DNA from: Rhodoferax sp.
GTDB taxonomy: Bacteria > Pseudomonadota > Gammaproteobacteria > Burkholderiales > Burkholderiaceae_C
Assembly (NCBI GenBank): GCA_008015235.1
Contig: SSFF01000004.1
Span: 62,001 to 126,000 of the forward strand
DNA: 64,000 nt
Reading direction: 5' to 3'
Shown here: one piece after another, positions 7,055 to 53,342 of the stretch
Layout: every line of letters begins with the position of its first letter
Position numbering within the stretch: position 1 is the stretch's first letter
Notes under the pieces: model-generated
The model's input: the letters and a program-made list of their open reading frames with translations, nothing else
What the model was told of the DNA's origin: nothing
Databases searched by the model: none
Translations under genes and position numbers: made by a program

Positions 7055-7110
7055 TCAAATTGGCATGTGGCCCGCTTGCAATATGCGCAGTTAGCTACCA
7101 AAAATGTAGC
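7055..7110 (-). repeat. dispersed comamonad palindromic element, copy 1 (intergenic)
   Basis: Read on the minus strand, this copy starts with the hairpin GCTAC...GTAGC (7110-7094), then TAACTGCGCATATTGCAAG, GCGGGCCACATGC and CAATTTG. It shares its order and spacing with the copies at 14892, 26393, 32314, 41289, 42081 and 53300. It lies between the crotonase start and the sdaA stop. Confidence 0.7.
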
Positions 7111-7113
7111 AAC

Positions 7114-8502
7114 TCAGCACTCCACGATATTCACTGCCAGGCCACCGCGCGCGGTTTCCTTGTACTTGGTCTTCATGTCGGCGCCGGTGTCGCGCATGGT
7201 CTTGATCACCTTGTCCAGGCTCACGAAGTGGCTGCCGTCGCCGCGCAGGGCCATGCGGGCGGCGTTGATGGCTTTGACCGAGGCAATGGCGTTGCGCTCG
7301 ATGCAGGGTATCTGCACCAGCCCGCCCACCGGGTCGCAGGTCAGGCCCAGGTGGTGCTCCATGCCGATCTCGGCAGCGTTTTCCACTTGCTCGGGCGTGC
7401 CGCCCAGCACCGCGCACAGGGCACCCGCCGCCATGGAGCAGGCCACGCCGACCTCGCCCTGGCAGCCCACCTCGGCCCCGCTGATGCTGGCGTTTTCCTT
7501 GTACAGGATGCCGATGGCCGCGGCCGTGAGCAGGAAGTCGTGCACGCCCTGCGCGGAGGCCTGGGGTACGAAGCGCGTGTAGTAGTGCAGCACGGCGGGA
7601 ATGATGCCGGCTGCGCCATTGGTCGGGGCCGTGACCACGCGGCCACCGGCGGCGTTTTCCTCGTTCACGGCCAGGGCGTAGAGGTTGACCCAGTCCAGCA
7701 CCTGCAGCGGATCGCGCAGGGCCTCCTCGGGCTTCGATGTAAGCGCGTCGCGCAGTGCCTTGGCACGGCGCTTGACCTTGAAGCCACCGGGCAGCACGCC
7801 CTCGGTGGCGCAGCCACGCGCCACGCAGGCCTGCATGACCTGCCAGATGCGCTCCAGCCCGGCGTCGATTTCGGCATCGCTGCGCCAGTGCTGCTCATTG
7901 CGCCGCATCACTTGGGCGATGGAGAGCCCCTGCGTTTTGCACACGGCCAGCAACTGGTCGCCGGTGGTGAAGGGCAGGGGCAGCACCGTGGCATCGGGTG
8001 CAATCACCTTATGGCGCGCCCCGTCGGCTGCCACCTCGTCGGTGACGATAAAGCCACCGCCCACCGAGTAGTAGGTGCGCTCGCACAGCGAGGCACCCGC
8101 CGCGTCCAGTGCTTCCAGCCGCATGCCGTTGGCGTGGAAGGGCAGGGCGGCGCGCATGAACAGCAGGTCGTCCTTCTCATGGAAGGCGATGGTGTGGCCG
8201 CCGGGCAAGGGGAGCTGCTTCTCAGTGCGCACCTGTGCCAGGTAAGCGGGAATGCGGTCCACGTCCACCGTGTCCGGCTCCAGCCCCATCAGGCCCAGCA
8301 GCACAGCGGTGTCGCTGCCGTGGCCCTTGCCGGTGGCCCCGAGCGAGCCATGCAGCCAGCAGCGCACCGTGGCGGTTTGCTTCAGCACGCCTTCGGCTTC
8401 AAGCTTGAGCGCAAACAGGCGCGCCGCCCGCATGGGGCCCACGGTGTGCGAACTGCTGGGGCCGATGCCGATCTTGAAAAGGTCGAAAACTGAAACTGCC
8501 AT
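7114..8502 (-). CDS. sdaA: L-serine ammonia-lyase (serine deaminase), iron-sulfur type
   Basis: This enzyme deaminates L-serine to pyruvate and ammonia using a [4Fe-4S] cluster. I chose the ATG at 8502 because [20 protein letters not shown] is the classical start; longer in-frame extensions run into dadA. The 462 residues contain the conserved [11 protein letters not shown], the [14 protein letters not shown] segment, the cysteine-bearing [17 protein letters not shown] and [17 protein letters not shown]. It lies 25 bases after dadA on the same strand, so it is the second gene behind the internal glycine riboswitch. In context it would drain serine made from glycine into pyruvate. Confidence 0.95.
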
Positions 8503-8527
8503 GGTGCTCCTCGTTGTAGTTTTTGGC

Positions 8528-9787
8528 TTAGGCCTGCAGTGCGAGTGTGACTGCAGGCGCGCGCTTTGCAAAGTGCTGCTGCACCTGCGCGGCGATCTGG
8601 TGGCCGGTGATGGCCGACAGCGTCCAGCCCAGGTGGCCGTGGCCGGTGTTATAGAACACATTGGCGCAGCGGCCCTGGCCCACGCGCGGCATCATGTTCG
8701 GCAGCATGGGGCGCAACCCGGCCCAGGGCTCGACGCGGCGGGTGGATACACCAGGGAAGCACTGGTTCACCCATTGAATGAGGGGGCGAATGCGGTCGGC
8801 GCGGATGTTCTGGTTCATGCCGTTGAATTCTGCGGTGCCGGCTACGCGGAAGCGGTCAGCCCCAAGGCGGCTGGTGACCAGCTTGGTCTCGTCGTCGAGC
8901 AGGCTGACCCAGGGTGCCGCCTGTTGGCTGGTTTCGTCCTGCAGGTGCACGGTGATGGAATAGCCCTTGACCGGGTAGATGTTGAGGCGGTCGCCCAGCT
9001 GCGCCGCTAGGCTGCGGCCCCAGACGCCAGCGCACACCACCACAGCGTCGAACTGTGCCTGCTGCGCGGCACCTTCTTCGCCTTGCAGCAGCAGGGTGCT
9101 GGTGCGGCCATCGGCCTGGGCACGCAGCACCTGGGTGCCGCGCAGAAAGCGCACACCCAGGCGTTCGCAGGCTTGTGACAGGCCATGGGTGAAGAGGTGG
9201 ATGTCGCCGGTGGAGTCGCTCTCGGTATAGAAGCCGCCGTAGTACTGCCCAGCCAGCGTGGGCTCAATGGCACGCATCTCGTCGGGTGTGACGGCGCGGC
9301 GCTCCAGCCCGCCCTGGGCCAGCAGCTGGGTCACGTTGGCGGCGTGGTCAAAGCCCTTCTTGTCGCGGTAGATGTGCAGGATGCCGCGGCGTTCGTGCTT
9401 GAAATCAATGCCTTCCGACTGCGCCCAGGCAAACAGGTGCTGGCGCGCTTCGATCGCCAGTTTCGTCGTGGCGATTGTGTTGTCGCGGTACTTGGGTAGG
9501 GCGGCGACAAACTCGGCCAGCCAGCTGAACTTGTGCCAGGTCGGCAGCGGGTTCATCAGCAGCGGCGCGTCGGGGGTGAACATCCACTTCAGGCCCTTGA
9601 TGAGGGTGCTGGGGTGGTTCCAGACCTCGGCGTTCGAGGCCGAGAGTTGCCCGCCGTTGGCGTAGGACGTTTCCATCCCGGCGTAGCGGTTTTTGTCGAT
9701 CAGGGTGACCTGGAAACCCTGTTGGGCCAGGGCGTAGGCGGTGGTGACACCGGTGATACCGGCGCCGATGACGGCGATGTGTTGCAT
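8528..9787 (-). CDS. dadA: FAD-dependent D-amino acid dehydrogenase (small subunit, DadA family)
   Basis: This membrane-associated flavoprotein oxidises amino acids to 2-oxo acids and passes electrons to the respiratory chain. The 419-residue product starts at the ATG at 9787 with the dinucleotide fold [21 protein letters not shown] (split here only as residues 4-24) and keeps DadA signatures such as [15 protein letters not shown] and [13 protein letters not shown] tandem glycine riboswitch and a terminator-like hairpin precede it, and sdaA follows. DadA usually acts on D-alanine and other D-amino acids; the riboswitch suggests that glycine itself may be a substrate, which is inference. Homologues are also annotated as D-amino acid dehydrogenase in unrelated contexts. 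Confidence 0.92.
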
Positions 9788-9811
9788 GCTGCACTCTCTT
9801 TGAGACTGTCC

Positions 9812-9855
9812 AAAACAAAAGGTCGCTGCGCATGCACCGTGCACACGCTGCGACC
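9812..9855 (-). terminator. terminator-like hairpin between glycine riboswitch and dadA
   Basis: On the minus strand GGTCGCAGCG (9855-9846) pairs with CGCAGCGACC (9830-9821) with one A-A mismatch; the loop can pair further through TGCA. It is followed by TTTTGTTTT (9820-9812). It sits directly after the second aptamer, so it is the likely expression platform: transcription would stop here unless glycine binding prevents hairpin formation. Confidence 0.6.
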
Positions 9856-9859
9856 CCCT

Positions 9860-10052
9860 CTGTTTTGAGACCTGAGAGATTCACGCCTGCCTTGCGGTGG
9901 GCGTTTGCTCCTGCGGTGAGCCGGGGGACAAGTCCCGGCCGCTCTTCAGAGTGCAATGCTTGAAAACGGTCCTTTTGCCTGAGAGTTTCCGGGGCGGTTG
10001 CTCCTTCGGCGCTGCTGCTGCGTTTGCAACGGCAGTCTCTTCCGTTTTCAAC
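9860..10052 (-). promoter_or_regulatory. tandem glycine riboswitch upstream of dadA-sdaA
   Basis: Two glycine aptamers lie in series on the minus strand. Aptamer 1 (about 10050-9961) is closed by GAAAACGG pairing with CCGTTTTC and contains GGAAGAGAC, GCCGAAGGAGCAA and AAACTCTCAGGCAAAAGGAC, which are the conserved glycine-aptamer segments. Aptamer 2 (about 9955-9862) contains CTGAAGAGCGGC, GCAGGAGCAAACGCC and AATCTCTCAGGTCTC. Tandem glycine aptamers usually activate genes for glycine degradation. It begins about 45 bases after the ltaE stop, so it can act on read-through transcripts as well as on its own promoter. Confidence 0.92.
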
Positions 10053-10097
10053 AAGGCAGCGGCTTGCAAACTTCCGCTGCCCGTAAAAAATCCGTTC

Positions 10098-11159
10098 CTA
10101 CAGTCCCAGCTCCGCCTTCACATCGGCCAGCAGGGCGTCCACTGACTCGGGCTGGGTGTCCCACGCGCACATGAAGCGGCAACCGCCACCGGCGATGAAC
10201 TGGTAGAACTTCCAGCCACGCGCGTACAGAGCCTGCACCAGTGCCGGCGGCAGCTGCGCAAACACGCCATTGGCCTGCGGCGCATGCAGCACCTGTACAC
10301 CTTTCAAACCCTGCAGTCCGGCGCTCAGGCGCTGGGCCATGGCGTTGGCGTGGGCGGCGTTTTTCAGCCAGACATCGTCTTCGAGCAAGCCGACCCAGGG
10401 GGCCGAGATGAAGCGCATCTTGCTGGCCAGCTGACCGGCCTGTTTGACGCGGTAGGCAAAGTCCTCGCTCATGGCTTTGTTGAAGAACACCACGGCTTCG
10501 CCCACGGGCAGGCCGTTCTTGGTGCCGCCAAAACAGAGCACATCGACACCGGCTTTCCAGGTGATGTCAGCCGGCTTGCAGCCCAGATGGGCTACGGCGT
10601 TGGCAAAGCGTGCGCCATCCATGTGCAGGCGCAGCTGGTGCTTCTTGGCCATCCACGAGATTTCACGCACCTCGTCCACGCTGTAGACCGTTCCCAATTC
10701 CGTGGCCTGGGTGATGGACACCACCTTGGGACGCGGGTAGTGGATGTCGCTGCGCTTGGTCACCAGGGTATTGATGGCCTCTGGCGTGAGCTTGCCCAGC
10801 TTGGCTGCTTCGGACTGGTTCTCACCCACCAGCAGCTTGGAGCCGTTGGAGAAGAATTCCGGCCCGCCGCACTCGTCGGTTTCGATGTGGGCTACGGGCG
10901 AGCAGATCACCGAGTGGTAGCTCTGGCACAGCGAGGCCAGCGCCAGCGAGTTGGCGGCCGTGCCGTTGAACACGTAGTACACATCGCAGTCGATGTCGAA
11001 CAGCTGGCGCAGCATGTCGGTCGACTTCTGCGTCCAGCGGTCGTCACCGTAGGCGGGCTCATGACCACTGGCATTGGCCTCCATGAACCAGTGCATGGCC
11101 TGCGGGCAAGTCCCCGCGTAGTTGTCACTGGCGAATTGTTGGCGGTTGGTAGTGGTCAT
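10098..11159 (-). CDS. ltaE: low-specificity L-threonine aldolase
   Basis: This PLP enzyme splits L-threonine (and allo-threonine) into glycine and acetaldehyde. The 353-residue product belongs to the beta-eliminating lyase fold: FNGTAAN (64-70) and the HIETDECGGPE segment (91-101) line the cofactor site, DGAR is at 181-184, and the PLP lysine is Lys214 in CFGGTKNGLPVGE. The start ATG at 11159 lies 17 bases after the gcvP stop on the same strand. In this locus it would supply the glycine that the cleavage system consumes. Alternative names for the family include phenylserine aldolase. Confidence 0.9.
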   Translation of the reverse strand: MTTTNRQQFASDNYAGTCPQAMHWFMEANASGHEPAYGDDRWTQKSTDMLRQLFDIDCDVYYVFNGTAANSLALASLCQSYHSVICSPVAHIETDECGGPEFFSNGSKLLVGENQSEAAKLGKLTPEAINTLVTKRSDIHYPRPKVVSITQATELGTVYSVDEVREISWMAKKHQLRLHMDGARFANAVAHLGCKPADITWKAGVDVLCFGGTKNGLPVGEAVVFFNKAMSEDFAYRVKQAGQLASKMRFISAPWVGLLEDDVWLKNAAHANAMAQRLSAGLQGLKGVQVLHAPQANGVFAQLPPALVQALYARGWKFYQFIAGGGCRFMCAWDTQPESVDALLADVKAELGL

Positions 11160-11176
11160 GTTGCTTCGGTACGGTT

Positions 11177-14080
11177 TTAGCTGTTGGCGTATTCGCCCAC
11201 GGGCACGCAGCTGCAGAACAGGTTGCGGTCGCCGTAGACGTTGTCGACGCGGCCCACGCTGGGCCAGTATTTGCCGGCCTTGAGGCTGGCCACCGGGAAG
11301 GCGGCCTGCTCGCGGCTGTAAGGGTGGGCCCAGTCACCGGCCACCACGCTGGCGGCGGTGTGCGGTGCGTTCTTGAGCACGTTGCCTTCCTGGGGCATGG
11401 CGCCGCTTTCCACCTGGGCGATCTCGCCACGAATGGCGATCATGGCGTCGATGAAGCGGTCCAGCTCGGCCAGGGTCTCGCTCTCGGTGGGCTCCACCAT
11501 CAGGGTGTTGGGCACCGGGAAGGACAGCGTGGGGGCATGGAAGCCATAGTCCATCAGGCGCTTAGCCACGTCTTCGGCCATGACGCCGCAGGTTTCCTTG
11601 AAATGGCGCAGGTCCAGGATGCACTCGTGGGCCACGTGGCCGTTCTCGCTGGCGTAGAGCGTGGGGTAATGGTCTTTGAGGCGGGTGCTGATGTAGTTGG
11701 CCGCCAGGATGGCCGATTCGGTGGCTTGCTTGAGGCCTTCGGCGCCCATCATGCGGCAGTACATCCAGCTGATGGGCAGTACAGCGGCGTTGCCCAAGGG
11801 CGCGGCCGACACGGCACCGGTTTTGCTGGCGATGCCACCGGTGGCATGGCCCGGCAGGAAGGGCACCAGGTCTTCGACCACGCACACGGGGCCGACACCG
11901 GGGCCACCACCGCCGTGGGGGATGCAGAAGGTCTTGTGCAAGTTCAGGTGGCTGACGTCACCGCCGAACTGGCCGGGGGCGGCCACGCCCACCAGGGCGT
12001 TCATGTTGGCGCCGTCCACGTAGACGCGGCCGCCGTGGCTGTGCACCAGAGCGCACAGTTCTTTCACCGTGGTTTCAAACACGCCGTGCGTGCTGGGGTA
12101 AGTGATCATGATGGCGGCCAGGTTGGCGCTGTGCTTTTCGCAGGCGGCCTTGAGGTCGTCCATGTCCACGTTGCCGTTGGCATCGCACTTGGTCACCACC
12201 ACCTGCATGCCAACCATCATGGCGCTGGCCGGGTTGGTCCCGTGCGCGCTGGAGGGGATCAGGCAGATGTTGCGGTGGCTTTCACCGCGGCTGGCGTGCC
12301 AGCCCTTGATGGCCAGCAGGCCGGCGTATTCACCTTGGCTGCCCGCATTGGGCTGCAGGCTGATGCCAGCGTAGCCGGTGGCAGCGCACAGCCAGTCGCG
12401 CAGCTGCTGGTCCAGCAAGGCATAGCCTTCGCGCTGGTCGGCCGGGCAGAAGGGGTGAATGTTCGCAAACTCGGGCCAGGTGATGGGAATCATCTCGCTG
12501 GTGGCGTTGAGTTTCATGGTGCAGGAGCCCAGCGGAATCATGCTGCGGTCCAGCGCCAGGTCTTTGTCCGACAGCATGCGGATGTAGCGCAGCATGCCGG
12601 TCTCGGAGTGGTGGGTGTTGAACACCGGGTGCGTCAGGTAGCTGCTTACGCGTTGCAGGCTGGCCGGGATCAGGGCGGGCGCCGTGGCAGCAAGCGCTTC
12701 CACGTTCGGCAGGGCTTGGCCCGGTTCAGCGAAGAACGACCAGACCAGTTCCAAGTCGGCGCGGGTGGTGGTTTCGTCGAGCGAAACGCAGATCGCATTT
12801 TCACGTGCAATTCGCACGTTAGCCCCCGCAGACAGTGCGCGGGCAGCTATTGTTTTTGTAGCATCTGCGGTCGGGATGCAGAGCGTGTCGAACGCGGTGC
12901 CGTGCAGCGGGGCAAAGCCCAGTTGGCGCAGGCCTTGGGCCAGGATGGCGGTGTAGGTGGCTACGCGCTGGGCAATGCGCTTCAAACCGGCCGGGCCGTG
13001 GTACACGGCGTACATGCTGGCGATGACGGCTGGCAGCACCTGCGCGGTGCAGATGTTGGAGGTGGCTTTTTCGCGGCGGATGTGCTGTTCGCGGGTCTGC
13101 AGGGCCAGGCGGTAGGCCGGGTTGCCGTGGCTGTCCACGCTCACGCCCACCAGGCGGCCAGGCATGGAGCGCTTGTATTCGTCGCGGCAGGCCATGAAGG
13201 CGGCGTGCGGGCCACCGGCGCCGAAGGGCATGCCGAAACGCTGGGTCGAGCCAATGGCAATGTCCGCACCCATTTCACCCGGGGCCTTGAGCACGGTCAG
13301 GGCCAGCAGGTCGCAGGCCAGGATCAGGGCAGCGCCCTTGCTGTGGATGGTGTCGGCGCTGAGCTGCCAGTCGGCCAGCCAGCCGCTGGAGCCGGGGTAC
13401 TGGTTCAGGGCCGCGAAGTAGTCGTCAGCGGCAATGGCGGCCTGCCATTCGTCGCTGGAACGCACCACCTTCACGTTGTAGCCCAAGGGGGCGGCGCGGG
13501 TCTGGATGACTTCGATGGTCTGGGGGTGGCAGTCGCCGCTGACGATGAAGGTGTTGCCCTTGGCCTTGACCGAGCGCTTGGCCAGGGTCATGGCTTCGGC
13601 CGCGGCCGTGGCTTCGTCGAGCATGGAGGCATTGGCCATGGGCATGGCGGTGAGGTCCGCCACCATGGTCTGGAAGTTCACCAGGGCTTCCATGCGGCCC
13701 TGGGAAATTTCGGCCTGGTAGGGCGTGTAGGCGGTGTACCAGGCGGGGTTTTCCAGAATGTTGCGCAGGATCACGCCGGGGGTGTGGGTGCCGTAGTAGC
13801 CCTGGCCGATGAAGCTCTTGAAAATCTTGTTCTTCCCCGCCATGGCCTTCAGTTCAGCCAGCGCCGCAGCTTCGGTAATGGCTTCGGGGATCGCCATGCG
13901 ATCGGCACGGGCGATGGCGCGCGGCACCACGCCGTCGATCAGTTCTGCACGGGTCGCACAACCCACGGCGGCGAGCATGGTTTTCTCTTCATCGGCATCA
14001 AAGCCAATGTGGCGTGCAATGAATTCGCTGGTGTTTTCCAGGCTGGAAAGACTGGATGCAGGTGTGGCGTTGGCGGACAT
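11177..14080 (-). CDS. gcvP: glycine dehydrogenase (decarboxylating), P protein
   Basis: The P protein decarboxylates glycine with PLP and passes the methylamine to lipoylated GcvH. The 967-residue length is that of the fused single-chain form. Visible marks include the amino-terminal [31 protein letters not shown], the glycine-rich [10 protein letters not shown], and the PLP-lysine segment [15 protein letters not shown]. It is the third gene of gcvT-gcvH-gcvP; 96 bp separate it from gcvH. About residues 407-412 (DATKTI) coincide with a shortened copy of the dispersed palindromic element, whose hairpin is at 12846-12862. A very long open frame on the opposite strand is only its shadow. Confidence 0.97.
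12846..12862 (+). repeat. short palindrome of the dispersed element inside gcvP
   Basis: GCTATTGTTTTTGTAGC, followed by ATCTGCGG, matches only the hairpin end of the 57-bp element; the GCGGGCC core and AATTTGG tail are absent or eroded. It is read through in the gcvP frame. It is a partial match, so it could be coincidental. Confidence 0.4.
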
Positions 14081-14639: not shown

Positions 14640-15785
14640 TTAGCCGCGGTAGTAGCGGTTGGGCACGAAGGGCATGGCGCTCACGACCATGGGCACGGGC
14701 TTGCCGCGCACGATGGCTACGACCTTGCTGCCCAGCGCGCTGTGCGCCACGTCCACGTAGCCCATGGCCACGCATTGGTTGATGGTGGGGCCCAGCAGGC
14801 CACTGGTGACTTCGCCGATCTTGTTGCCAGCGCCGTCCTGCAGTTCGGTGTGTTCGCGCACGGGAATACGCTCCTGGGCCACCAGTCCTACGCGTTTTCG
14901 GGCTCCAGCCCGCGTGGAATCTGCGAGAGCAGCTAGTATTTTTGTAGCGCCTGGGAAGCCGCCTTCACGCGCACCGCCAGCGCGACGCACCTTTTGGATG
15001 GCCCACAAGAGGCTGGCTTCAACCGGGGTGGTGGTGGTGTCGATGTCGTTGCCATACAGGCACAGGCCGGCTTCCAGGCGCAGCGAATTGCGCGCACCCA
15101 AGCCGATGGGTTTGACTTCGGGTTGGGCCAGCAGGGCGCGCGCCAGGGCTTCGGCCTGGGATTCGTGCACGGAGATCTCGAAGCCGTCTTCGCCGGTGTA
15201 GCCGCTGCGGGTCAGGAATACGTCGATCTTCTTCGTGCCGGTATCCACGGTGAAGTTGCCGCCGGTCATGAACACGAGCTTTTCCACGCCAGGGGCCAGG
15301 CGCGACAGGGCAGTCACAGCCTGCGGGCCTTGCAGCGCCAGCAGGGCCATCTCGGGCATGGGGATGACTTGGCAGCGGGTGCCGATCTTGGCCTGGATGT
15401 GGGCGATGTCACCGACCTTGCAGGCGCCGTTGACGATGACGAAGATCTCGTTGTTGCCCTTGTTGAAGAACATCAGGTCGTCAATGATGGTGCCTTCCTC
15501 GGTGGTCAGCAGGCCGTAGCGCTGTTTGCCCACGGGCAGGTCGATTACGTCCACCGGCATCAGGGTCTCGAACGCGGCGGCGGCGTCAGGTCCGACCAGG
15601 CGCAACTGGCCCATGTGCGACACGTCAAACAGACCGGCGGCGTTGCGCGTGTGGTTGTGCTCGGCCATCAGCCCTGCGGGGTACTGCACGGGCATGGAGT
15701 AGCCGGCAAAAGGCACCATGCGCGCGCCAAGTTCAATGTGCAGAGCGTTGAGCGGGGTGGTCAACAGGGTTTGGTCAGCGGACAT
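14640..15785 (-). CDS. gcvT: glycine cleavage system T protein (aminomethyltransferase)
   Basis: GcvT moves the one-carbon unit from aminomethyl-GcvH to tetrahydrofolate and releases ammonia. I place the start at the ATG at 15785 with GGAGAGAAG upstream; the open frame extends into the riboswitch but is not coding there. The 381 residues contain [37 protein letters not shown] and [19 protein letters not shown], all standard. Residues about 280-298 ([17 protein letters not shown]) coincide with a full copy of the dispersed element at 14892-14948, before the conserved VGLV segment. It is the first gene of the operon. Confidence 0.96.
14892..14948 (-). repeat. dispersed palindromic element, copy inside gcvT
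   Basis: On the minus strand the hairpin GCTAC...CTAGC (14948-14932) is followed by TGCTCTCGCAGATTCCAC, GCGGGCTGGAGCC and CGAAAACG, in the same order as the other copies. The length is a multiple of three (57 bp), so the gcvT frame stays open. Confidence 0.65.
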
Positions 15786-15822: not shown

Positions 15823-15865
15823 AGGGCAACCTGAATCTCGCGGCCCCAAATGGTGCCGAGAGGCT

Positions 15866-16110
15866 GCCCCCTGTCCCTTGTACCTGAGAGATTCGCCGGG
15901 CCTGCATGCACGCGGGGTGCGCAGACTGCGGTTTGCTCCTTCGGTGGGTTGCCGCACATCGGTGATGCGTCGTGCAACCTCTCTCCAGTGGGTGTCGCTG
16001 CACACACGCGGTGCGCAGCGTTGGTCAGTCCTTTTGCCTGAGCGTTCAGACGGCTGCAATCAACCATCCTGCGCCTTCGGCGATCCCCGTAGGGGATTCT
16101 CTCCTGACGA
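15866..16110 (-). promoter_or_regulatory. tandem glycine riboswitch upstream of gcvTHP
   Basis: Aptamer 1 (about 16108-16020) begins GTCAGGAGAGAATCCCC, contains CGCCGAAGGCGCAGGA and ends TCTGAACGCTCAGGCAAAAG GACTGAC, with GTCAG closing against CTGAC. Aptamer 2 (about 15990-15866) contains CACTGGAGAGAGG, CACCGAAGGAGCAAACC and GCGAATCTCTCAGGTACAAG. These are the conserved glycine-binding segments in both units. The gcv operon is the classic target of this class, normally switched on by glycine. It occupies most of the gap between gcvT and plsC. Confidence 0.94.
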
Positions 16111-16183
16111 AGCCGCAATTCTAAGCGAGAAGGCCAGCCCGTACACTCTGCGCCTTCCTTCACCCGACCACTTTGGGAGTTTG

Positions 16184-19557: not shown

Positions 19558-19577
19558 TCGATTTGGTTTCTGCATAA

Positions 19578-19621
19578 AAAAAGCTGCCTGCCCTTGTAGT
19601 TCAAGCGCAGGCAGCTCTCTT
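19578..19621. terminator. bidirectional terminator between the two SDR genes
   Basis: AGCTGCCTGC (19582-19591) pairs perfectly with GCAGGCAGCT (19607-19616), preceded by an A-run and followed by CTCTTTTT. It separates two convergent genes. Confidence 0.8.
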
Positions 19622-19635
19622 TTTCATAGCGAATT

Positions 19636-22685: not shown

Positions 22686-22770
<85 letters not shown>

Positions 22771-22837
22771 AAATTTCCCAAACAAATAAAAGGCCGCGTA
22801 CTTGCGGCCAGTTGAAATGATTCCACTGTATTATCAG

Positions 22838-22922
<85 letters not shown>

Positions 22923-22971
22923 ATTTCAGGAAAGAGAGCATTGTATCAAAAAAAATAGCCAAACCAGCGCA

Positions 22972-32293: not shown

Positions 32294-32398
32294 ACCCCGG
32301 TGGAGTTGGGGTCGCTATGTTTGTTATAGCTGCTTGCGTAATATTTATGCGGGCCAGAGGCTAATTTGGCATCTAATTGGGTCTGAAATGGGCCCCGC
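32294..32398. other. short gap between trhP and AlkD-like gene
   Basis: Apart from the element copy at 32314-32370 I see nothing here. No other gap exceeds about 300 bases without a listed feature; the larger ones (9788-10097, 15786-16183, 20395-20722, 22613-22971) hold riboswitches, operators, terminators or tRNAs. Confidence 0.6.
32314..32370 (+). repeat. dispersed palindromic element, intergenic copy after trhP
   Basis: This is the best-preserved copy: GCTATGTTTGTTATAGC, TGCTTGCGTAATATTTAT, GCGGGCCAGAGGC and TAATTTGGC. It lies in the 105-bp gap between convergent trhP and the AlkD-like gene, where it may also form the transcript end. Confidence 0.8.
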
Positions 32399-40498: not shown

Positions 40499-42481
40499 TC
40501 ACCGCCCCCGCAAGAACAGCCCATCCAGCTCCTTCATGCTGAGCTGGCGCCAGGTGGGGCGGCCGTGGTTGCACTGGTCACTCCGTTCCGTTTCTTCCAT
40601 CTGGCGCAGCAGGGCGTTCATTTCTTCGAGGGTCAGGCGGCGGTTGGCGCGCACGGCGCCGTGGCAGGCCATGGTGGCCAGCAGTTCGTTGTGGGCGCGC
40701 TGGAGCACGGTGCTGGCGTCGTGGGTGGCCAGTTCGGCCAGCACGCTGCGCGCCAGTTCCACGGCGTTGCCTTGGGCCAAGGAGCTGGGCACGGCGCGCA
40801 CGGCCAGGGTCTTGGCCGAGAACGGCGACACTTCCAGCCCGAGCTGGTGCAAGGCCTCGACATGGGCCTCTGCTGTGGCCACTTCCTCGGGCGTGGCGGC
40901 AAAAGTGGCAGGCACCAGCAGCGGCTGGCTCGGGATGGCTTTGGCACTGCCATCGGTGCCGAGCTGCTTCTTCAGGCGTTCGTAGACGATGCGCTCGTGC
41001 GCGGCGTGCATGTCCACCAGCACCAAGCCCTGGGCGTTTTCGGCCAGGATGTAGACGCCGTGCAGCTGGGCAATGGCGCGGCCCAGGGGCCAGATTTGCG
41101 CGGGGCTGCTGGGAGGCCAAGGGTTTTGCTCCGTGTCCCCCGCACGCTGCGCGTGCTCCTCCTTAACCTGCGCAAAACCCTGGGCCTCCCAGCCGCTGGA
41201 GGCGCCGGTGTCGGGGCTGGACCGCCACAGGGCGCCCACGTCTTCGACCCGGTGCTGCACCATGCTTGGCGCGTAGCTACCGCCAGTCGCTACGAAATTC
41301 ATAGCTGTCTGTGCACGGTATTCGCGGGCCAGAGGCTGATTTGGCTCTGAAAATGCGGTCTGGACCGAACTCGATGCCACTTCGGCCAAAGTCGGCTGCT
41401 GGGGCACAGCGCTGCCTGCCAGCGCCGAGCGCGGCGCCGCCAGTGCGTTTTCCACGGCGTGGCGCACGGCCTGGTGCACTTCGCGGCTGTCGCGGAAACG
41501 CACCTCGATCTTGGTGGGGTGCACGTTCACGTCCACACGTGTGGGGTCCATTTCCACATACAGGGCGTACACCGGCTGCTTGTGGCCGTGCAGCACGTCT
41601 TCATAGGCGCTGCGGGCGGCGTGGGTCAGTACCTTGTCGCGCACAAAACGGCCGTTGACGTAGCAGAACTGCTGGTCGGCGCGCGAGCGCGCGGCGTCGG
41701 GCACACCGGCGCGGCCCCACACCCGCACCGGCACACCGTTGGCGCCGGTGGTTTGGAAATCGACTTCGACCGACTGTTCCAGAAACTCGGCCCCCAACAC
41801 GTCGCGTAGGCGCTGGGCCAGGGCGGCGCTGGGTTCGGACGCGGTGGTGCGGCGCCACTGTTCGACCAGCTTGCCTTCGCTCCAGATGGCAAAGCCCACG
41901 TCGGGCCGCGCCAGGGCGTGGCGGCGCACGGCTTCCACGCAGTGGGCCAGCTCGGTGGCGTCGGTCTTCAGGAACTTGCGCCGCGCCGGGGTGCTGAAGA
42001 ACAGTTCCTTCACTTCCACCGTGGTGCCTGTGGCGCGGGCCACAGGGCGCAGTTCGCCGGTGCGGCCGTCCAACAAATAGGCATCATTTATGCCGCTAGC
42101 CCGCGAAAGTATTGCGCAGTCAGCTATGGAGTTGATAGCAGCCAGGGCCTCGCCGCGAAACCCCATGGTGGCCACCGACTCCAGCTCGGACAAGTTGGCA
42201 ATCTTGCTGGTGGCGTGGCGCTTGAATGCGATGGGCAGTTCGTCGCGCAATATGCCGGCGCCGTCGTCCTCCACGCTGATCAGGCGCACGCCTCCGGCCA
42301 GCAGGCGCACGGTAATCTGGCTGGCCCCGGCGTCCAGCGCGTTGTCCACCAGTTCGCGCACCACCGAAGCGGGGCGTTCCACCACTTCACCGGCGGCAAT
42401 CTGGCTGATGAGCTCGTCGGGTAGCTCGCGGATCGGTCGGCGTTGGGGCGGTGGCGTGGGGGGCAGGGCAGGGGCGTTCAC
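40499..42481 (-). CDS. mutL: DNA mismatch repair protein MutL
   Basis: MutL couples MutS mismatch recognition to MutH or nicking and UvrD. The 660-residue protein starts at a GTG (42481). The GHKL ATPase domain shows LISQIAAGEVVERPASVVREL, DNALDAGA, EDDGAGI and TMGFRGEALAAI. The transducer domain follows, then a linker, and the carboxyl dimerisation domain contains DMHAAHERIVYERL and ATMACHGAVRANR. Two copies of the dispersed element are read in frame: about residues 115-134 just after GFRGEAL, and about 379-398 in the linker. The carboxyl end abuts the low-GC cassette-like patch. Confidence 0.96.
   Translation of the reverse strand: MNAPALPPTPPPQRRPIRELPDELISQIAAGEVVERPASVVRELVDNALDAGASQITVRLLAGGVRLISVEDDGAGILRDELPIAFKRHATSKIANLSELESVATMGFRGEALAAINSIADCAILSRASGINDAYLLDGRTGELRPVARATGTTVEVKELFFSTPARRKFLKTDATELAHCVEAVRRHALARPDVGFAIWSEGKLVEQWRRTTASEPSAALAQRLRDVLGAEFLEQSVEVDFQTTGANGVPVRVWGRAGVPDAARSRADQQFCYVNGRFVRDKVLTHAARSAYEDVLHGHKQPVYALYVEMDPTRVDVNVHPTKIEVRFRDSREVHQAVRHAVENALAAPRSALAGSAVPQQPTLAEVASSSVQTAFSEPNQPLAREYRAQTAMNFVATGGSYAPSMVQHRVEDVGALWRSSPDTGASSGWEAQGFAQVKEEHAQRAGDTEQNPWPPSSPAQIWPLGRAIAQLHGVYILAENAQGLVLVDMHAAHERIVYERLKKQLGTDGSAKAIPSQPLLVPATFAATPEEVATAEAHVEALHQLGLEVSPFSAKTLAVRAVPSSLAQGNAVELARSVLAELATHDASTVLQRAHNELLATMACHGAVRANRRLTLEEMNALLRQMEETERSDQCNHGRPTWRQLSMKELDGLFLRGR
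41289..41345 (+). repeat. dispersed palindromic element, copy in mutL linker
   Basis: The plus strand reads GCTACGAAATTCATAGC, TGTCTGTGCACGGTATTC, GCGGGCCAGAGGC and TGATTTGGC. The 57-bp copy encodes about NQPLAREYRAQTAMNFVA on the mutL strand, inside the variable linker. Confidence 0.75.
42081..42139 (-). repeat. dispersed palindromic element, copy in mutL ATPase domain
   Basis: On the minus strand GCTATCAACTCCATAGC (42139-42123), TGACTGCGCAATACTTTC, GCGGGCTAGCGGC and ATAAATGATGCC follow the shared order. It encodes about INSIADCAILSRASGINDAY, directly behind the conserved GFRGEALA motif. Confidence 0.7.
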
Positions 42482-47657: not shown

Positions 47658-47746
47658 GGTGTCTCCTGGGTGTGGAATGGATGGCAATCGAACCGGTCTG
47701 GGGGTAAACCCCCAAGAATTCACGCTTTACCTTGTAGCGTGGCTGA

Positions 47747-47775
47747 ACTATAGTTTCTGAAATTTACTAAATCAA
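47747..47775 (-). promoter_or_regulatory. sigma-70-type promoter of the sugar importer operon
   Basis: On the minus strand TTGATT (47775-47770), a 17-bp spacer and TATAGT (47752-47747) lie 90 bp before the binding-protein start. The -35 box falls inside the adjacent inverted repeat. Confidence 0.6.
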
Positions 47776-47788
47776 GTTGTTTTAGTTA
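47764..47788. promoter_or_regulatory. TTACTAAA...TTTAGTTA inverted repeat, candidate ROK operator
   Basis: Arms TTACTAAA and TTTAGTTA are nine bases apart, in the gap between the importer operon and the divergent kinase gene, overlapping the importer -35 box. It is the only clear dyad in this gap. The position fits repression of both transcripts by the ROK protein encoded at 43169-44401. Confidence 0.55.
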
Positions 47789-47802
47789 TCGAAAACCCTA
47801 AT

Positions 47803-48789
47803 ATGCGAACCATGAACAAGGACATCACCAGCTTCCAGGTGGCCACCGCAGGCGAAGCCCTGATCGACATGATGGGGCGCCCCGACGGCAGCTTCATGCC
47901 TTGCCTGGGCGGCGCCGTCTACAACCTCACCCGGGCCTTGGCCCTGCAGGACATTGCCACCCTGTACCTCAATCCGCTCTCATCGGACCGCTTGGGTCGG
48001 CAGCTGGCGCAAGGCCTGCGCGAATGCAATGTGGGACTGGCCTGTCCGGACCCTGTGGTCCAACCCACCGCGCTGGCCATGGTGGCATTGACTGAAAGCG
48101 GCCATCCCGATTACGCGTTCTACCGCGACGGAGTCGCCGACCGCGCCATCGACGCGTCCACGCTGGTGCAGCACTGCGCCGCCGCCACCGGCTTGCAGGT
48201 GGTGTGCACCGGCGCCCTGGCGCTGGACCCGCGAGACGCCGGGGTCTACCTGCCCTGGCTGGACGCCCAGTGCCAGGCCGGTCGCACCGTCGTGGTGGAC
48301 GCCAATATGCGTCCATCGGTCATGCAGGACCTGGCGGCCTACCGTCGGCATGTGCATGCGGTGCTGCAGCGTGCCCATGTCATCAAGGTCAGTGACGAAG
48401 ACCTTGCGCATTTGGGACTGACGGCAGGGACGCCATTGGAGCAGGCACGCCAGCTGCTCGCAGGCAGCCAGGCCAGTTGGCTGGCGCTGACCTGTGGCGC
48501 CGAGGGCGCCCACCTGCTGACACGGCATGGGGCCCACTTCACGGCCCGGGAATCCAGGGCCTTGAAGGTGGTGGACACCGTGGGAGCGGGCGACTGCTTT
48601 CTGGCCGGACTGGTGGCACGCTGGCTGGGTCTGGGGCTGGCACAGGACTGGGGCCGCTCGGTGGTGGATGCCCACGCGGCCCAAAGCCTGCTCGACCACG
48701 CCATTGCCAGCGCCAGCATCAACGTCCAGCGCCAGGGCTGCCAGCCGCCGCGTGCGCAGGAGATTGAGGTCTGGCTGGGGCTGGCCTGA
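47803..48789 (+). CDS. PfkB-family carbohydrate kinase
   Basis: This 328-residue cytoplasmic sugar kinase resembles fructokinases and related PfkB enzymes. Signatures are GEALIDMMG, GGAVYNLTRALALQD near the amino end and DTVGAGDCFLAGLVARW (the anion-hole GAGD with the catalytic Asp) near residues 258-274. It would phosphorylate the imported sugar. The ATG at 47803 lies very close to the promoter region; the next ATG at 47812 (MNKDITSF) may be the real start. Confidence 0.88.
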   Translation: MRTMNKDITSFQVATAGEALIDMMGRPDGSFMPCLGGAVYNLTRALALQDIATLYLNPLSSDRLGRQLAQGLRECNVGLACPDPVVQPTALAMVALTESGHPDYAFYRDGVADRAIDASTLVQHCAAATGLQVVCTGALALDPRDAGVYLPWLDAQCQAGRTVVVDANMRPSVMQDLAAYRRHVHAVLQRAHVIKVSDEDLAHLGLTAGTPLEQARQLLAGSQASWLALTCGAEGAHLLTRHGAHFTARESRALKVVDTVGAGDCFLAGLVARWLGLGLAQDWGRSVVDAHAAQSLLDHAIASASINVQRQGCQPPRAQEIEVWLGLA

Positions 48790-48877
48790 CGAAGCCCACA
48801 GGGTTTGCATGGCGGTCCGATAGGGATTAGCATGTCTCCCATAACAAGAAGTACCAACACTTCAACGGGAGGCGCAA

Positions 48878-49312
48878 ATGTCCATTGGTTTGCACTGGGA
48901 AGCTCGCGGCGTGCTCAGGGTCTGCAGCGGCGACATCGGTTTCGAGGAATACATGCAGTCCACGGCCGAACTGCACAACGATCCACGGTTTGATGCCTTG
49001 CGCTACTTCATCGACGATTTCACCCAGGTCGAGTCCCTGCACATGAGCTCCAACGATGTCGAGATGGTCATTGCCAGCATGATCGGTGCGGCCTACAGCA
49101 ATCCCCACATCCGCATGGCTATGGTGGCGCGGTCCGAACCCCTGCGCCAGATGCTGGCGCAACTTCTGCGCATGAGTCCCTATGTCAACCGCGTGTTCGA
49201 TACCCAGGCCGAGGCGCGGGAGTGGATTGGCAGCGGGGAAACCATGCCGGTGCCGCTGGAGATACAGCTGCAGGCCGCGGTCGATTTCGACACCCGGCCG
49301 CTCATCTACTGA
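48878..49312 (+). CDS. hypothetical protein, SpoIIAA-like fold possible
   Basis: This is a 144-residue soluble protein with good codon use. It begins MSIGLHWEARGVLRVCSGDI, has a likely alpha/beta core (FDALRYFIDDFTQVESL; VEMVIASMIGAAYSNPHIRMAMVARSE, quoted in part), and ends VDFDTRPLIY. Pattern and size recall SpoIIAA/STAS-like proteins, but I cannot confirm it. It is preceded by GGGAGG at the ribosome site. The gene is convergent with amiC, with six bases between them. Confidence 0.7.
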   Translation: MSIGLHWEARGVLRVCSGDIGFEEYMQSTAELHNDPRFDALRYFIDDFTQVESLHMSSNDVEMVIASMIGAAYSNPHIRMAMVARSEPLRQMLAQLLRMSPYVNRVFDTQAEAREWIGSGETMPVPLEIQLQAAVDFDTRPLIY

Positions 49313-49318
49313 GCACGC

Positions 49319-50713
49319 TCAGACCGTGCGTTTGCGTGCCAGGGGTGGGTTCTTGGCAAAGTAGGCTTCAATGCCGCGCATGAGCGCGTCGGACAGGGCT
49401 TCCTGGTAGGCCTCGCTGTTGAGCTTGGTCTCTTCCGTGGGGTTGCTGATGAAGGCCGCCTCGACCAGCACGCTGGGAATGTCGGGCGCCTTGAGCACGG
49501 CAAAGCTGGCCTGTTCGACCTTGGCCTTGTGCAGTTTGCCGACGCGGCCGATTTCCCCCAGCAAATGCTTGCCGAGCTTGAGGCTGTCGTTGATCTGGGC
49601 CGTGGTGCTCATGTCCAGCAGGGCGCGCTGCACGGTGGCGTCCTTGGCCTTGACGTTGATGCCGCCAATCAGGTCGGCCTTGTTCTCCTTGGCCGCCATC
49701 CAGCGCGCTGCACTGCTCGACGCACCGCCCTGGCTCAAGGCGAACACGCTGGCGCCTTGCGGCTGGGGCGTGAAGAAGGCATCGGCATGGATGCTCATGA
49801 ACAAGTCGGCCTGGACACGGCGGGCCTTCTGCACGCGCACGTGCAAGGGCACGAAGTAGTCGGCATCGCGCGTCAGGTAGGCCCGCATGGGGTTGCCGCC
49901 CACGCTGGCGGCATTGATGCGCTCGCGCAGCCGGTGCGCCAGTTGCAGCACAACCTCTTTCTCGCGCGTGCCGCCCGGGCCAATGGCGCCGGGGTCTTCA
50001 CCGCCATGGCCGGGATCCAGCGCGATGATGATCATGCGCTCGGCAGCGTCCGGTTCGGGCGGCTTTGGGGCATCATTTGGGCCCTTGCCCCTCTTGGAAT
50101 CAGCGGGATTTGCTCCTGAATTAATAGCAACAGCTCCGCTAGCCTTGTCGGCAGGTACGGGGGGACGCTGCGGTTGCGTGGTCTGGGCGATGAACTCACC
50201 CAAAGGGTCCGCCGAGCCGGCAGGGGAGGGGCCATCACCTGCTGCGGGCTTGCGCTCGCGCAACTGCTCGGCAATGAGCGTTTCCAGCGGGTCGACTTCT
50301 TTTTCAGGGTAAAGGTCAAACACCAACCGGTGCTGGTAGGCCGCCACCGGGGCCAGCGTGAACACCTGGGGCCGGGCTGGGTGCTTGAGGTCGATGACCA
50401 GGCGCACGATGCTGGGCGTGAACTGGCCCACGCGGATACCGGCAATGTTGGGGTCGTCGGCCTTGACCTTCGCCACCAGCTCCTTGAGCGCCGGGTTCAG
50501 GGCAATGCCCTCGATGTCCACGGCCAGGCGTGGCGGATTGGGCACAAAGGTCTGCTTGGCCACCAGGGCGGTGTCGGACTCGATGGTCACGCGCGAATAC
50601 TCGGGCGCTGGCCAGACCCGCACGTTGACAATGCCCGCGCCCCAGGCCAGCTGGCGCGCGCCCAGCGCCAGCACGATGCCGCCGCTTTGCAACAGGGTCC
50701 GGCGGCGCAGCAT
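49319..50713 (-). CDS. amiC: N-acetylmuramoyl-L-alanine amidase AmiC
   Basis: This periplasmic amidase splits septal peptidoglycan during cell separation. The 464 residues begin with a Tat-type signal (MLRRRTLLQSGG, cleaved near 26). An AMIN septum-targeting domain follows (about 27-130), then a Pro-rich linker and the zinc Amidase_3 domain (IALDPGHGGEDPG, REKEVVLQLA, FMSIHADAF, VLVEAAFISNPTEE). The linker near residues 196-201 coincides with a short copy of the dispersed palindrome. The start ATG overlaps the tsaE stop by one base, so they are coupled. Confidence 0.93.
   Translation of the reverse strand: MLRRRTLLQSGGIVLALGARQLAWGAGIVNVRVWPAPEYSRVTIESDTALVAKQTFVPNPPRLAVDIEGIALNPALKELVAKVKADDPNIAGIRVGQFTPSIVRLVIDLKHPARPQVFTLAPVAAYQHRLVFDLYPEKEVDPLETLIAEQLRERKPAAGDGPSPAGSADPLGEFIAQTTQPQRPPVPADKASGAVAINSGANPADSKRGKGPNDAPKPPEPDAAERMIIIALDPGHGGEDPGAIGPGGTREKEVVLQLAHRLRERINAASVGGNPMRAYLTRDADYFVPLHVRVQKARRVQADLFMSIHADAFFTPQPQGASVFALSQGGASSSAARWMAAKENKADLIGGINVKAKDATVQRALLDMSTTAQINDSLKLGKHLLGEIGRVGKLHKAKVEQASFAVLKAPDIPSVLVEAAFISNPTEETKLNSEAYQEALSDALMRGIEAYFAKNPPLARKRTV
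50112..50128 (-). repeat. short palindrome of the dispersed element in the amiC linker
   Basis: On the minus strand GCTATTAATTCAGGAGC resembles only the hairpin of the element; the GCGGGCC core is not found beside it. It lies in the variable linker. Evidence is weak. Confidence 0.35.
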
Positions 50714-51264
50714 CAGCTCTCCGGCAGGATGGTGACTGGCACCGGGCGCTGCAGCGGCAATGCGCTCACCAGGGCGCGCCCGGTGGCCGTGTGGGCCGTG
50801 AGCGTGACCAGGCGTTGCTGGTCGGTGTCGGTCTGCAGGTGGATGTCCAGGTCGGCCACGGGCAGCATGCGGGCTGCTTTTTCGGGCCACTCGGCCAGCT
50901 TCAGGCCGGGGCTGGCAAAGATGTCACGGAACCCCGCGTCTTCCCACTCGCGCGGGTCGTCGAAGCGGTAGAAATCAAAGTGCCACACGTTCAGGCCTGG
51001 CAGTTCATAGGGCTCGACCACGGCATAGGTCGGGCTCTTGACGCGCCCTTGAACCCCCAGCGCGCGCAGCAGGTGCCGCACCAGCGTGGTCTTGCCGGCC
51101 CCCAGGTCACCGTGCAGGGCAATGAAGGCGTTGCGCAAAGCGGCCTTTTGCGCCAGGGTGGCGGCAAACACCTCGGTGGCCAGTTCATCGCGCCAGACCA
51201 GGCTGGCCACGGTCGGGACCGTGGGTACGGCAGTGCTTTCTACAATAGTGACGTGACGCTCCAT
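50713..51264 (-). CDS. tsaE: tRNA threonylcarbamoyladenosine biosynthesis ATPase TsaE
   Basis: TsaE is the ATPase partner of TsaB-TsaD in making the universal t6A37 tRNA modification. The 183-residue protein has Walker A GDLGAGKTT (53-61) and a switch segment VKSPTYAVVEPYEL. YRFDDPREWEDAGF follows as usual. The amino end is about 20 residues longer than in small homologues. It overlaps amiC by one base and is head-to-head with queG. Confidence 0.94.
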   Translation of the reverse strand: MERHVTIVESTAVPTVPTVASLVWRDELATEVFAATLAQKAALRNAFIALHGDLGAGKTTLVRHLLRALGVQGRVKSPTYAVVEPYELPGLNVWHFDFYRFDDPREWEDAGFRDIFASPGLKLAEWPEKAARMLPVADLDIHLQTDTDQQRLVTLTAHTATGRALVSALPLQRPVPVTILPES

Positions 51265-52374
51265 AGCTCTCCATTAGACGGCCAAGAACTCATGGCACAC
51301 ATCCGTGCCTGGGCTCTGGAACTCGGATTCTCCCAAATTGGCGTGGCCGGTGTCGATCTTTCCTCCAGCGAGCCCGGTTTGCTGGCCTGGCTGGACCAGG
51401 GGTTCCATGGCGACATGCACTACATGGCCGCCCACGGCCTCAAGCGCGCCCGCCCTATGGAGCTGGTGCCCGGTACCGTGTGCGTGCTCACCGCGCGCAT
51501 GGATTATCTGCCGCGCGGCACGGCACCGGACTGGGCCGAACAGGAGCTGGCGCGGCTGCAGACGCCCACCCAGGGCGTGGTGTCGGTCTATGCCCGCGGG
51601 CGGGACTACCACAAGGTGCTGCGCAGCCGCCTGCAAAAGCTGGCCGACAAGATTGCCGAAGTGCTGGGGCCCGTGGGCCACCGCGTGTTCACCGACTCGG
51701 CCCCGGTACTGGAAGCCGAACTGGCCGCGCGCAGCGGCCAGGGCTGGCGCGGCAAGCACACGCTGCTGCTGAGCCGCGAGGGTGGCTCCATGTTCTTCCT
51801 TGGCGAGATCTACCTCGACTTTGCGCTGCCCTTGTCGGAGCCCACCAGCCACCACTGTGGCCAATGCACGGCCTGCATCAGTGCCTGCCCTACCGGGGCC
51901 ATCGTGTCGCCGGGCAAGCTCGACGCACGGCGCTGCATTTCCTACCTGACCATAGAGCACGCAGGGCCCATTCCCGAAGACCTGCGCCCGCTGCTGGGTA
52001 ACCGCATCTACGGCTGCGACGACTGCCAGCTGGTGTGCCCCTGGAACAAGTTCGCCCAGCCCAGTGCCTTGCCTGACTTCGACGCCCGCGCGCCAGTGCA
52101 GCCCCAGGACCTGCTGGCATTTTTCGCCTGGACCGAGGCCCAGTTTCTGGCGCACACCGAAGGCAGCCCAATCCGGCGCATCGGCCATGCGCGCTGGATT
52201 CGCAATGTGGCCGTGGCCCTGGGCAATGCGCTGCGCCAGCCAACTCTGGACGCGGACGTGACCCAACGCATCCGCCAGGCCTTGCAGCAGCGCCTGCAGG
52301 AGGCCGACGCCGTGGTGGCCGAACATGTGCAGTGGGCCTTGGCGCAGGGGCCTGCCCAGGAGGAGGGGCTTTGA
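51253..52374 (+). CDS. queG: epoxyqueuosine reductase QueG
   Basis: QueG reduces epoxyqueuosine to queuosine in tRNA using cobalamin and two [4Fe-4S] clusters. I give the GTG at 51253 (373 residues) because homology to E. coli starts upstream of the ATG at 51292 (SPLDGQELMAHIRAW resembles PLDLNQLAQKIKQW); the shorter 360-residue form is possible. The two cluster motifs are HHCGQCTACISACPTGAI and CDDCQLVCPWNK. The GTG start overlaps the divergent tsaE start by 12 bases, and a TACAAT box lies at 51241. It overlaps xerD by four bases. Confidence 0.93.
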   Translation: MTLHSSPLDGQELMAHIRAWALELGFSQIGVAGVDLSSSEPGLLAWLDQGFHGDMHYMAAHGLKRARPMELVPGTVCVLTARMDYLPRGTAPDWAEQELARLQTPTQGVVSVYARGRDYHKVLRSRLQKLADKIAEVLGPVGHRVFTDSAPVLEAELAARSGQGWRGKHTLLLSREGGSMFFLGEIYLDFALPLSEPTSHHCGQCTACISACPTGAIVSPGKLDARRCISYLTIEHAGPIPEDLRPLLGNRIYGCDDCQLVCPWNKFAQPSALPDFDARAPVQPQDLLAFFAWTEAQFLAHTEGSPIRRIGHARWIRNVAVALGNALRQPTLDADVTQRIRQALQQRLQEADAVVAEHVQWALAQGPAQEEGL

Positions 52375-53273
52375 GCGCAGCAGCGAACCAGGCGCTGGTG
52401 GACCAGTTCATCGACGCCCTGTGGCTCGAAGATGGCCTGGCGCGCAACACCCTGGACGCCTACCGGCGCGATCTGCAGCTGTTTTGCCACTGGCTGCAGG
52501 GGCGTAAACTGGCCGCGGTGGTGGAGGGCGATTTGCACGCCTACTTTGCCCACCGCCATGCCGCCACCCGCGCCACCACGGCCAACCGGCGCCTGACTGT
52601 GTTCAAGCGCTTTTTCCTGTGGGCGCTGCGCGAGAAGCTGGTGCTGGCCGACCCCACACTCAAGCTGCGCGCGGCCAAGCAGCCGCTGCGCGTGCCCAAG
52701 ACCCTGACCGAAGCCCAGGTCGAGGCGCTGCTTAATGCCCCGGACACCAGCACCGCTTTAGGCGTGCGCGACCGCACCATGCTGGAGCTGATGTACGCCA
52801 GCGGCCTGCGCGTGAGCGAGCTGGTGGACCTGCGGGTGTTTCAGCTCGGCCTGAATGACCACGTGCTGCGTGTGACTGGCAAAGGTTCCAAGGAGCGAAT
52901 GGTGCCTTACGGCGAGGTGGCGGGGCAGTGGCTGCAGCGTTACCTGAACGATGCCCGCAAGGAACTTCTGGCCGGGCAGCAGTCGGACGATTTGTTTGTG
53001 ACCGTGCGTGGGCAAAACGCAGGCAGCGCGATGTCGCGCGTGATGTTCTGGATGCTGGTGAAGAAGTACGCGCTGCTCGCGGGCATCCGCACGCCCTTGT
53101 CACCACACACTCTGCGCCATGCCTTTGCCACCCATCTGCTCAACCACGGGGCTGACCTGCGGGCGGTGCAGATGCTGCTGGGGCACGCCGACATTTCCAC
53201 CACCACCATCTACACCCATGTGGCGCGTGAACGCCTTGCTGCATTGCATGCCCAGCACCACCCGCGTGGCTGA
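52371..53273 (+). CDS. xerD: tyrosine recombinase XerD
   Basis: XerD, with XerC, resolves chromosome dimers at dif. The start TTG at 52371 has AGGAGG eight bases upstream and overlaps the queG stop (TTGA). The 300-residue protein has the full tyrosine-recombinase set: Arg147 (ASGLRVSEL), Lys171 (GKGSKER), His246 and Arg249 (HTLRHAF), His272 (GHADIS) and nucleophile Tyr281 (TIYTHV). Length and motif spacing match the housekeeping enzyme rather than an integrase. Confidence 0.92.
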   Translation: MSAAANQALVDQFIDALWLEDGLARNTLDAYRRDLQLFCHWLQGRKLAAVVEGDLHAYFAHRHAATRATTANRRLTVFKRFFLWALREKLVLADPTLKLRAAKQPLRVPKTLTEAQVEALLNAPDTSTALGVRDRTMLELMYASGLRVSELVDLRVFQLGLNDHVLRVTGKGSKERMVPYGEVAGQWLQRYLNDARKELLAGQQSDDLFVTVRGQNAGSAMSRVMFWMLVKKYALLAGIRTPLSPHTLRHAFATHLLNHGADLRAVQMLLGHADISTTTIYTHVARERLAALHAQHHPRG

Positions 53274-53299
53274 TGGATGCTCGGGTTTTGATGAAAGTG

Positions 53300-53342
53300 A
53301 CCGTTAGCCCGCGTATTCATTGCGCAGGCAGCTATCAATAGC
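53300..53342 (-). repeat. dispersed palindromic element, intergenic copy after xerD
   Basis: On the minus strand GCTATTGATAGC (53342-53331), TGCCTGCGCAATGAATAC and GCGGGCTAACGG follow the shared order; the tail to about 53285 is diverged. It lies between the convergent xerD and EAL-HDOD genes. Confidence 0.65.

Follow-up and report, generated by a model that had tools for sequence, protein, structure and literature searches.

The stretch of DNA analysed here, called the window throughout, comprises 64,000 nucleotides of Rhodoferax sp. (GenBank assembly GCA_008015235.1, contig SSFF01000004.1, positions 62,001 to 126,000 of the forward strand), and contains ten significant copies of an imperfectly palindromic DNA element of about 62 bp, located both between genes and inside gcvT, gcvP, nnrD, mutL and an amidase gene. 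The element recurs hundreds of times in this genome and in many genera of its family, and most of the in-gene copies that could be judged overlie existing codons.

The element and its copies in the window

All copies align in one orientation and without gaps in a fixed register of 65 bases, with the order GCTAY-N7-RTAGC, TGCTTGCGCA, about seven variable bases, TATGCGGGCC, AGAGGCC and AATTTGGCAT. A BLAST search of the own genome with one copy gave 40 scored matches at E ≤1 (self included) among 79 candidates, and a covariance model of 65 positions (R1) was built from 34 aligned rows, namely 30 BLAST-found loci and four window copies, one copy being entered twice. Scanned with R1 with filters off, the window yields the following features.

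32313-32377, plus strand: element copy, 81.5 bits (E 3.9e-24), in R1; in the gap between converging genes for a U32 peptidase and for DNA-alkylation repair
41288-41352, plus strand: element copy, 66.5 bits, in R1; antisense in mutL, residues 377-398 (linker)
7047-7111, minus strand: element copy, 62.9 bits, in R1; 2 bp past the stop of a serine dehydratase gene
53284-53348, minus strand: element copy, 55.9 bits, in R1; in the gap between converging integrase-family and EAL/HDOD genes
42076-42140, minus strand: element copy, 51.3 bits, outside R1; sense in mutL, residues 114-136, in place over the conserved GFRGEALAAINSIADC segment
26392-26456, plus strand: element copy, 45.2 bits, outside R1; antisense in nnrD, residues 67-88, in place
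14885-14949, minus strand: element copy, 43.3 bits (E 8.5e-12), outside R1; sense in gcvT, residues 288-310, in place
12798-12863, minus strand: element copy, 38.3 bits, outside R1; sense in gcvP, residues 406-428, in place
19567-19631, minus strand: element copy absent from the original prediction, 29.5 bits; between two short-chain dehydrogenase genes, 4 bp past a stop
50065-50129, minus strand: degenerate element copy, 20.2 bits (E 2.4e-4); sense, in an AMIN/Amidase_3 amidase gene, where it falls between the two domains
62373-62437, minus strand: site unsupported as a copy, 8.2 bits (E 1.9)

The original prediction, made from the letters of the window, had named seven full or near-full copies in both orientations; all seven match R1, including three (14885, 26392 and 42076) that lie outside its training rows, and both orientations are present. 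Two of the three sites that it had taken for hairpins alone, 12846 and 50112, proved to be parts of full copies (12798-12863 and 50065-50129), and the third, at 62420, is the unsupported site listed last. Its placement of copies inside gcvT, nnrD and, twice, mutL is borne out, and gcvP and the amidase gene join these. A possible origin as a mobile RNA hairpin, also raised there, fared worse: two proposed RNA helices, and likewise an alternative helix, showed no more covariation among own-genome copies than shuffles did, and the RNA-structure reading was dropped. No Rfam family matched over the element at the gathering threshold.

Further features were noted in the window. Within mutL, near the linker copy, a 25-base inverted repeat (41105-41129 and 41172-41196) is 92% complementary with 42 bases between its arms. 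On the minus strand, glycine riboswitch aptamers occur as a tandem pair (15861-15998 and 16016-16116) upstream of gcvT and singly (9957-10054) upstream of another minus-strand gene. Two tRNA genes (22686-22771 and 22838-22923) are 95% alike, with starts 152 bp apart.

Copy number, distribution and genomic surroundings

Across the whole own genome, R1 finds at least 150 copies, the weakest among those listed scoring 42.6 bits, and 400 kb of one contig, C30, amounting to 11% of the genome, contain 53 at E ≤0.05, or one per 7.5 kb, so that about 480 copies per genome are obtained by extrapolation. Turned into a weight matrix, the same alignment yields 51 matches at a score of at least 14 in the 400 kb of C30 and none in a Markov simulation. 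Four hundred kilobases of G007, a family genome free of R1 matches in the survey described below, served as an element-free control: at scores of at least −20 the matrix finds 0 matches there and 66 on C30, and at −30 or above 11 and 88, and a second matrix, built from copies of a genome presumed to be that of Comamonadaceae bacterium OS-4 and of a further genome, G258, finds 0 in G007 at 0 or above and 3 at −10 or above (63 and 76 on C30). The in-gene copies are therefore not attributable to codon structure. Outside full copies in the 400 kb of C30, separated middle and tail parts do not exceed their frequency in simulation, and only 6 of 57 matrix matches on C30 score between 0 and 14, which argues for a discrete family rather than a graded motif.

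Among 200 genomes of the family (own included), R1 matches at E ≤1e-4 occur in 65, representing 50 of 141 genera; strict filters were used and at most 26 matches were scored per genome, so these counts are lower bounds. An order-wide sample of 200 genomes gave four with matches; three of these belong to the same family, and the fourth, from outside it, has one match. The search of comamonad genomes that the original prediction had proposed thus brought further copies to light, and Rhodoferax, Curvibacter, Polaromonas and strain OS-4 are among the carriers named for 80 mutL loci. No match to one query copy was found in plasmids, and eight phage records that match half of that copy at E 0.04 were taken as chance. 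The consensus of OS-4 and G258 departs from that of the own genome chiefly around TGCTcGCGCA and gGCGCtAG, and some OS-4-type copies form, by eye, a long near-palindrome that is flanked on either side by T-rich arms and looks like a two-way terminator.

With respect to genes, called on C30 by a simple caller of our own (coding fraction 0.87), 37 of the 53 copies are intergenic and 16 lie inside called genes. Intergenic copies keep close to gene 3′ ends, 41 of 48 of which are overlapped or no more than 46 bp away (5′ ends, 8 of 26), and convergent gaps hold 16 of these 37 copies, yet make up 45 of the 282 gaps. Convergent gaps that are occupied have a median length of 81 bp, compared with 28.5 bp for free ones (p 0.0015), and subtraction of 62 bp abolishes the difference (p 0.84). 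Some orthologous gaps likewise differ by 54-71 bp, while others do not; in the clearest case, in which the flanks can be aligned, the occupied gap measures 74 bp in G258 and 90 bp in OS-4, and four relatives that lack a copy have 18-20 bp there. Conserved gene pairs around the 80 mutL loci provided no occupied gap for comparison. A replichore polarity of the Chi or KOPS type was considered and rejected (25 co-oriented versus 32 opposed among 57 copies of the OS-4 chromosome, counted by hand in the listed portion of 150 scored copies, with orientation set by skew).

Copies inside genes: apparent replacement, insertion and age

Ten in-gene copies in nine proteins, among them four of the six in the window (all but the mutL and amidase linker copies), were compared with solved homologues. 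In seven of them (the sense copy of MutL, GcvT, NnrD, GcvP, FolP, MurI and the second MoeA site), the net change within the copy is at most four residues; the MoeA copy at C30:295396 is an insertion and that of GluQRS probably another, and TrmB was placed in neither class. The MutL sense copy aligns without gaps with E. coli MutL (7p8v), and the NnrD copy shows no insertion relative to TM0922 (2ax3). Within the copy, GcvT exceeds 3gir and 1wsr by three residues, and the GcvT of the window ranges from four residues shorter to one longer when compared with four element-free relatives. GcvP is one residue longer than 9uz6, and the aligned stretch of its orthologs spans 35 residues with the element and 34-40 without it. 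The FolP copy compared is that of G258, with an ortholog on C30, and the second MoeA site (C30:294975) is a weaker copy in place. Two further G258 genes, named by eye, show small gains: a pseudouridine-synthase-like gene exceeds its G007 homologue by seven residues, and an aquaporin-like gene exceeds a paralogue by four. The in-place copies look overwritten rather than inserted. A "core only" signature of such copies was dropped (p 0.11).

Unlike these, the MoeA copy at C30:295396, itself a training row of R1, is a clean in-frame insertion. Among the best 30 loci from 61 genomes, of whose 29 relatives one was unreadable, 24 of 28 have a spacing of 23 residues at this position (an empty site), compared with 48 in the own protein; the remaining four, with a spacing of 46-51 residues, carry an insert that matches the element in three and not in the fourth (spacing 46 residues), and E. 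coli MoeA likewise lacks the segment. GluQRS probably carries a second in-frame insertion, judging from its protein: compared with E. coli, 43 extra residues separate the aligned blocks, and a similar segment is recognisable by eye in most of 24 homologues picked from at least 120. Inspection by eye revealed no clear target-site duplication at moeA or at the one gap between genes for which empty relatives are known; the copies are old. Peptides such as LAPxxYAQxAIxxIA, an antisense reading of the element, were seen by eye to recur in GluQRS, MutL linkers and several other proteins.

These results bear on the reading suggested by the original prediction, namely a mobile element that enters genes in frame as Rickettsia palindromic elements (RPE) do. 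This reading partly holds, because of the empty moeA sites and some of the gap-length differences, and the hundreds of copies and, probably, GluQRS agree with it. For the MutL sense copy, GcvT, GcvP and NnrD it is not supported, since solved homologues align through the copy with no added residues beyond the small differences given above, and with no 20-residue insertion; for these genes this is the outcome that the original prediction had named as refuting it.

The reading frames used within genes are uneven. Among 41 intergenic copies, four of the six frames of the element are each free of stops in 13-19, and these are the frames read in 17 of 20 in-gene copies; the other three, which include FolP on C30, are read in a frame that just one of the 41 keeps open.

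As to age, the copies in mutL and gcvP have a more atypical synonymous codon usage than any other window of the respective gene (0 of 571, 0 of 557 and 0 of 914 windows as high), whereas in element-free gcvP orthologs 494 of 913 windows are as atypical as the element position. Synonymous identity inside the copies (0.506 and 0.547 in mutL versus 0.574 elsewhere; 0.647 versus 0.682 in gcvP) is not raised, and its use as proof of selection was dropped. The consensus of orthologs outscores the median living copy for the mutL sense copy (45 versus 22) and gcvP (27 versus 16); only 7 of 80 sequences were usable in this test for the mutL linker copy, at which 45 of 80 spanning homologues score at least 8. 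We interpret the mutL and gcvP copies as a single ancient gain that has since eroded in the ordinary way; selection on the DNA may have acted as well. Turnover between G258 and OS-4 (aligned blocks 70-92% identical) is low: 14 of 19 comparable sites are common to both, and the other five comprise three degenerate copies of roughly equal length and two shorter gaps in the other species, ten G258 sites (nine anchorless, one with unequal gap sizes) and four anchorless OS-4 sites being left out of the comparison. Among 88 distinct own-genome copies the closest pair is 85% identical and the median pair 57%, and the family looks old and quiet.

Proposed origin of the family and its meaning

The explanation we favour, with confidence a little above even, is that the element is a small non-autonomous, imperfectly palindromic DNA that spread in an ancestor of one group of Comamonadaceae and is now nearly immobile. 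New copies would come from an integration process able to remove target DNA as it adds element DNA, templated replacement between short homologies being one example. Selection would retain the harmless events, namely those just past stop codons, gains of a multiple of three in loops and, within folds, changes that leave the length almost as it was, and fixed copies would then decay at ordinary rates; copies at convergent gene ends may in addition act as two-way transcription terminators. A stronger proposal, which we put forward tentatively and hold to be rather less than an even bet, is that the element overwrites: it would swap about 40-60 bp, including conserved codons of mutL, folP, gcvP and other genes, for its own sequence at near-zero net length, by templated replacement or drive to a recognised motif, and would thereby rewrite core enzymes with element-encoded peptides.

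Several observations weigh against the favoured explanation. No instance of the replacement step was caught between close relatives, and the in-place copies may possibly have arisen through point mutation instead. Neither an associated transposase nor a partner element was found. In the 400 kb of C30 there are 18 places at which the first hairpin (GCTAY-N7-RTAGC) stands by itself, apart from full copies, four of them at or beside weak copies, compared with 0 in simulation and 5 in 400 kb of G007, an enrichment that a single moving unit does not explain. The gap-length comparison carries little weight, since a gap shorter than 62 bp could not hold the element; occupied divergent gaps remain longer after subtraction of 62 bp (p 0.037), and 13 occupied gaps with free orthologs differ from them by −247 to +1708 bp (median 54). 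Furthermore, the persistence of rare element-like codons at the mutL and gcvP copies could reflect selection on the DNA.

That last point, together with the seven in-place copies, the absence of strand bias with respect to replication and the lone first hairpins, also speaks for a selected or driven DNA motif, such as an uptake signal or a nucleoid-protein site towards which sequences drift by point mutation wherever the protein permits. We regard this as quite unlikely: the family is discrete, with unenriched middle and tail parts and few intermediate scores, its length of about 60 bp far exceeds that of known uptake signals, moeA and one intergenic site are insertions, and synonymous identity within copies is not raised. 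Conventional insertion of an RPE-like or MITE-like (miniature inverted-repeat transposable element) sequence, with the in-place cases being old insertions followed by compensating deletions, is unlikely too. The moeA insert with its empty sites, the longer GluQRS segment with its similar counterparts in comamonad homologues, the gains in intergenic gaps and the use of the often-open frames by most in-gene copies all fit it, but the copies in MutL, FolP, GcvP and NnrD sit in aligned folds with at most one residue inserted, and the three in-gene copies in the rarely open frame do not suit it either.

Mobilisation as a REP/REPIN-like sequence by the single RAYT-type transposase gene of these genomes appears very improbable. 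The element is indeed palindromic, lies near gene ends and has RTAG ahead of a possible hairpin, and RAYT-family matches are present in 61 of the 65 element-bearing genomes; across 20 RAYT regions there are 16 element matches that score at least 0, of which 6 are no more than 500 bp from the gene match, including five at 270-281 bp towards its 3′ side. However, such genes are nearly as common in family genomes without the element (116 of 135; 177 of 200 overall), 57 of the 200 pass the curated cut-off, the own RAYT region contains no element copy, gene 3′ ends draw copies generally, and nearly a third of the C30 copies (16 of 53) are inside genes. One RAYT-type gene (L231, 3251-3628) precedes what appears by eye to be gltB.

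Several known systems share features with the family. RPE, like the present element, are short palindromes that occur between genes as well as in frame within them, but they inhabit another host group, and most judged in-gene copies of the present element overlie existing codons rather than adding residues. REP, BIME and REPIN sequences, associated with RAYT transposases, are palindromes near gene 3′ ends in hundreds of copies; the element resembles them in both respects and differs from the extragenic REP in its in-gene share. DNA uptake sequences (DUS/USS) occur in place within genes in preferred frames and also near gene ends, a likeness offset by the much greater length of the element, its discreteness (graded partial matches being limited to the first hairpin) and its inserted copies. 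An in-frame RPE insertion is recorded in PMC5656822. The nearest published repeat found is BRE of Bordetella, which its description (Hot et al. 2011, PMC3110155) presents as a dispersed betaproteobacterial repeat, present also in Comamonadaceae, mostly intergenic with some copies in genes and suspected of mobility, about 90 bp long, with an average GC of 69% in Bordetella, tandem copies at some loci and at most 29 copies per genome. By description rather than by sequence, the present element is set apart from BRE by its 62-65 bp, its GC of 42-57% (ten window copies), its roughly 480 copies per genome and the lack of noticed tandem arrays. Apart from BRE, the literature listings searched showed nothing on the element: a text search with four of its 13-mers recovered one of them in one unrelated paper, and none of the terms searched occurs in the RepRanger paper.

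We call the element a member of the class of gene-invading palindromic repeats, distinguished by what looks like frequent length-neutral replacement. For annotation, it explains the rare-codon patches in mutL and gcvP and the similar alanine-rich peptides in several unrelated comamonad proteins, and the family supplies hundreds of comparable sites across many genera at which events can be compared between genomes. Should replacement be the origin of its in-gene copies, small repeats would be able to remodel conserved proteins and leave them intact, and selfish DNA would have a way into protein other than insertion.

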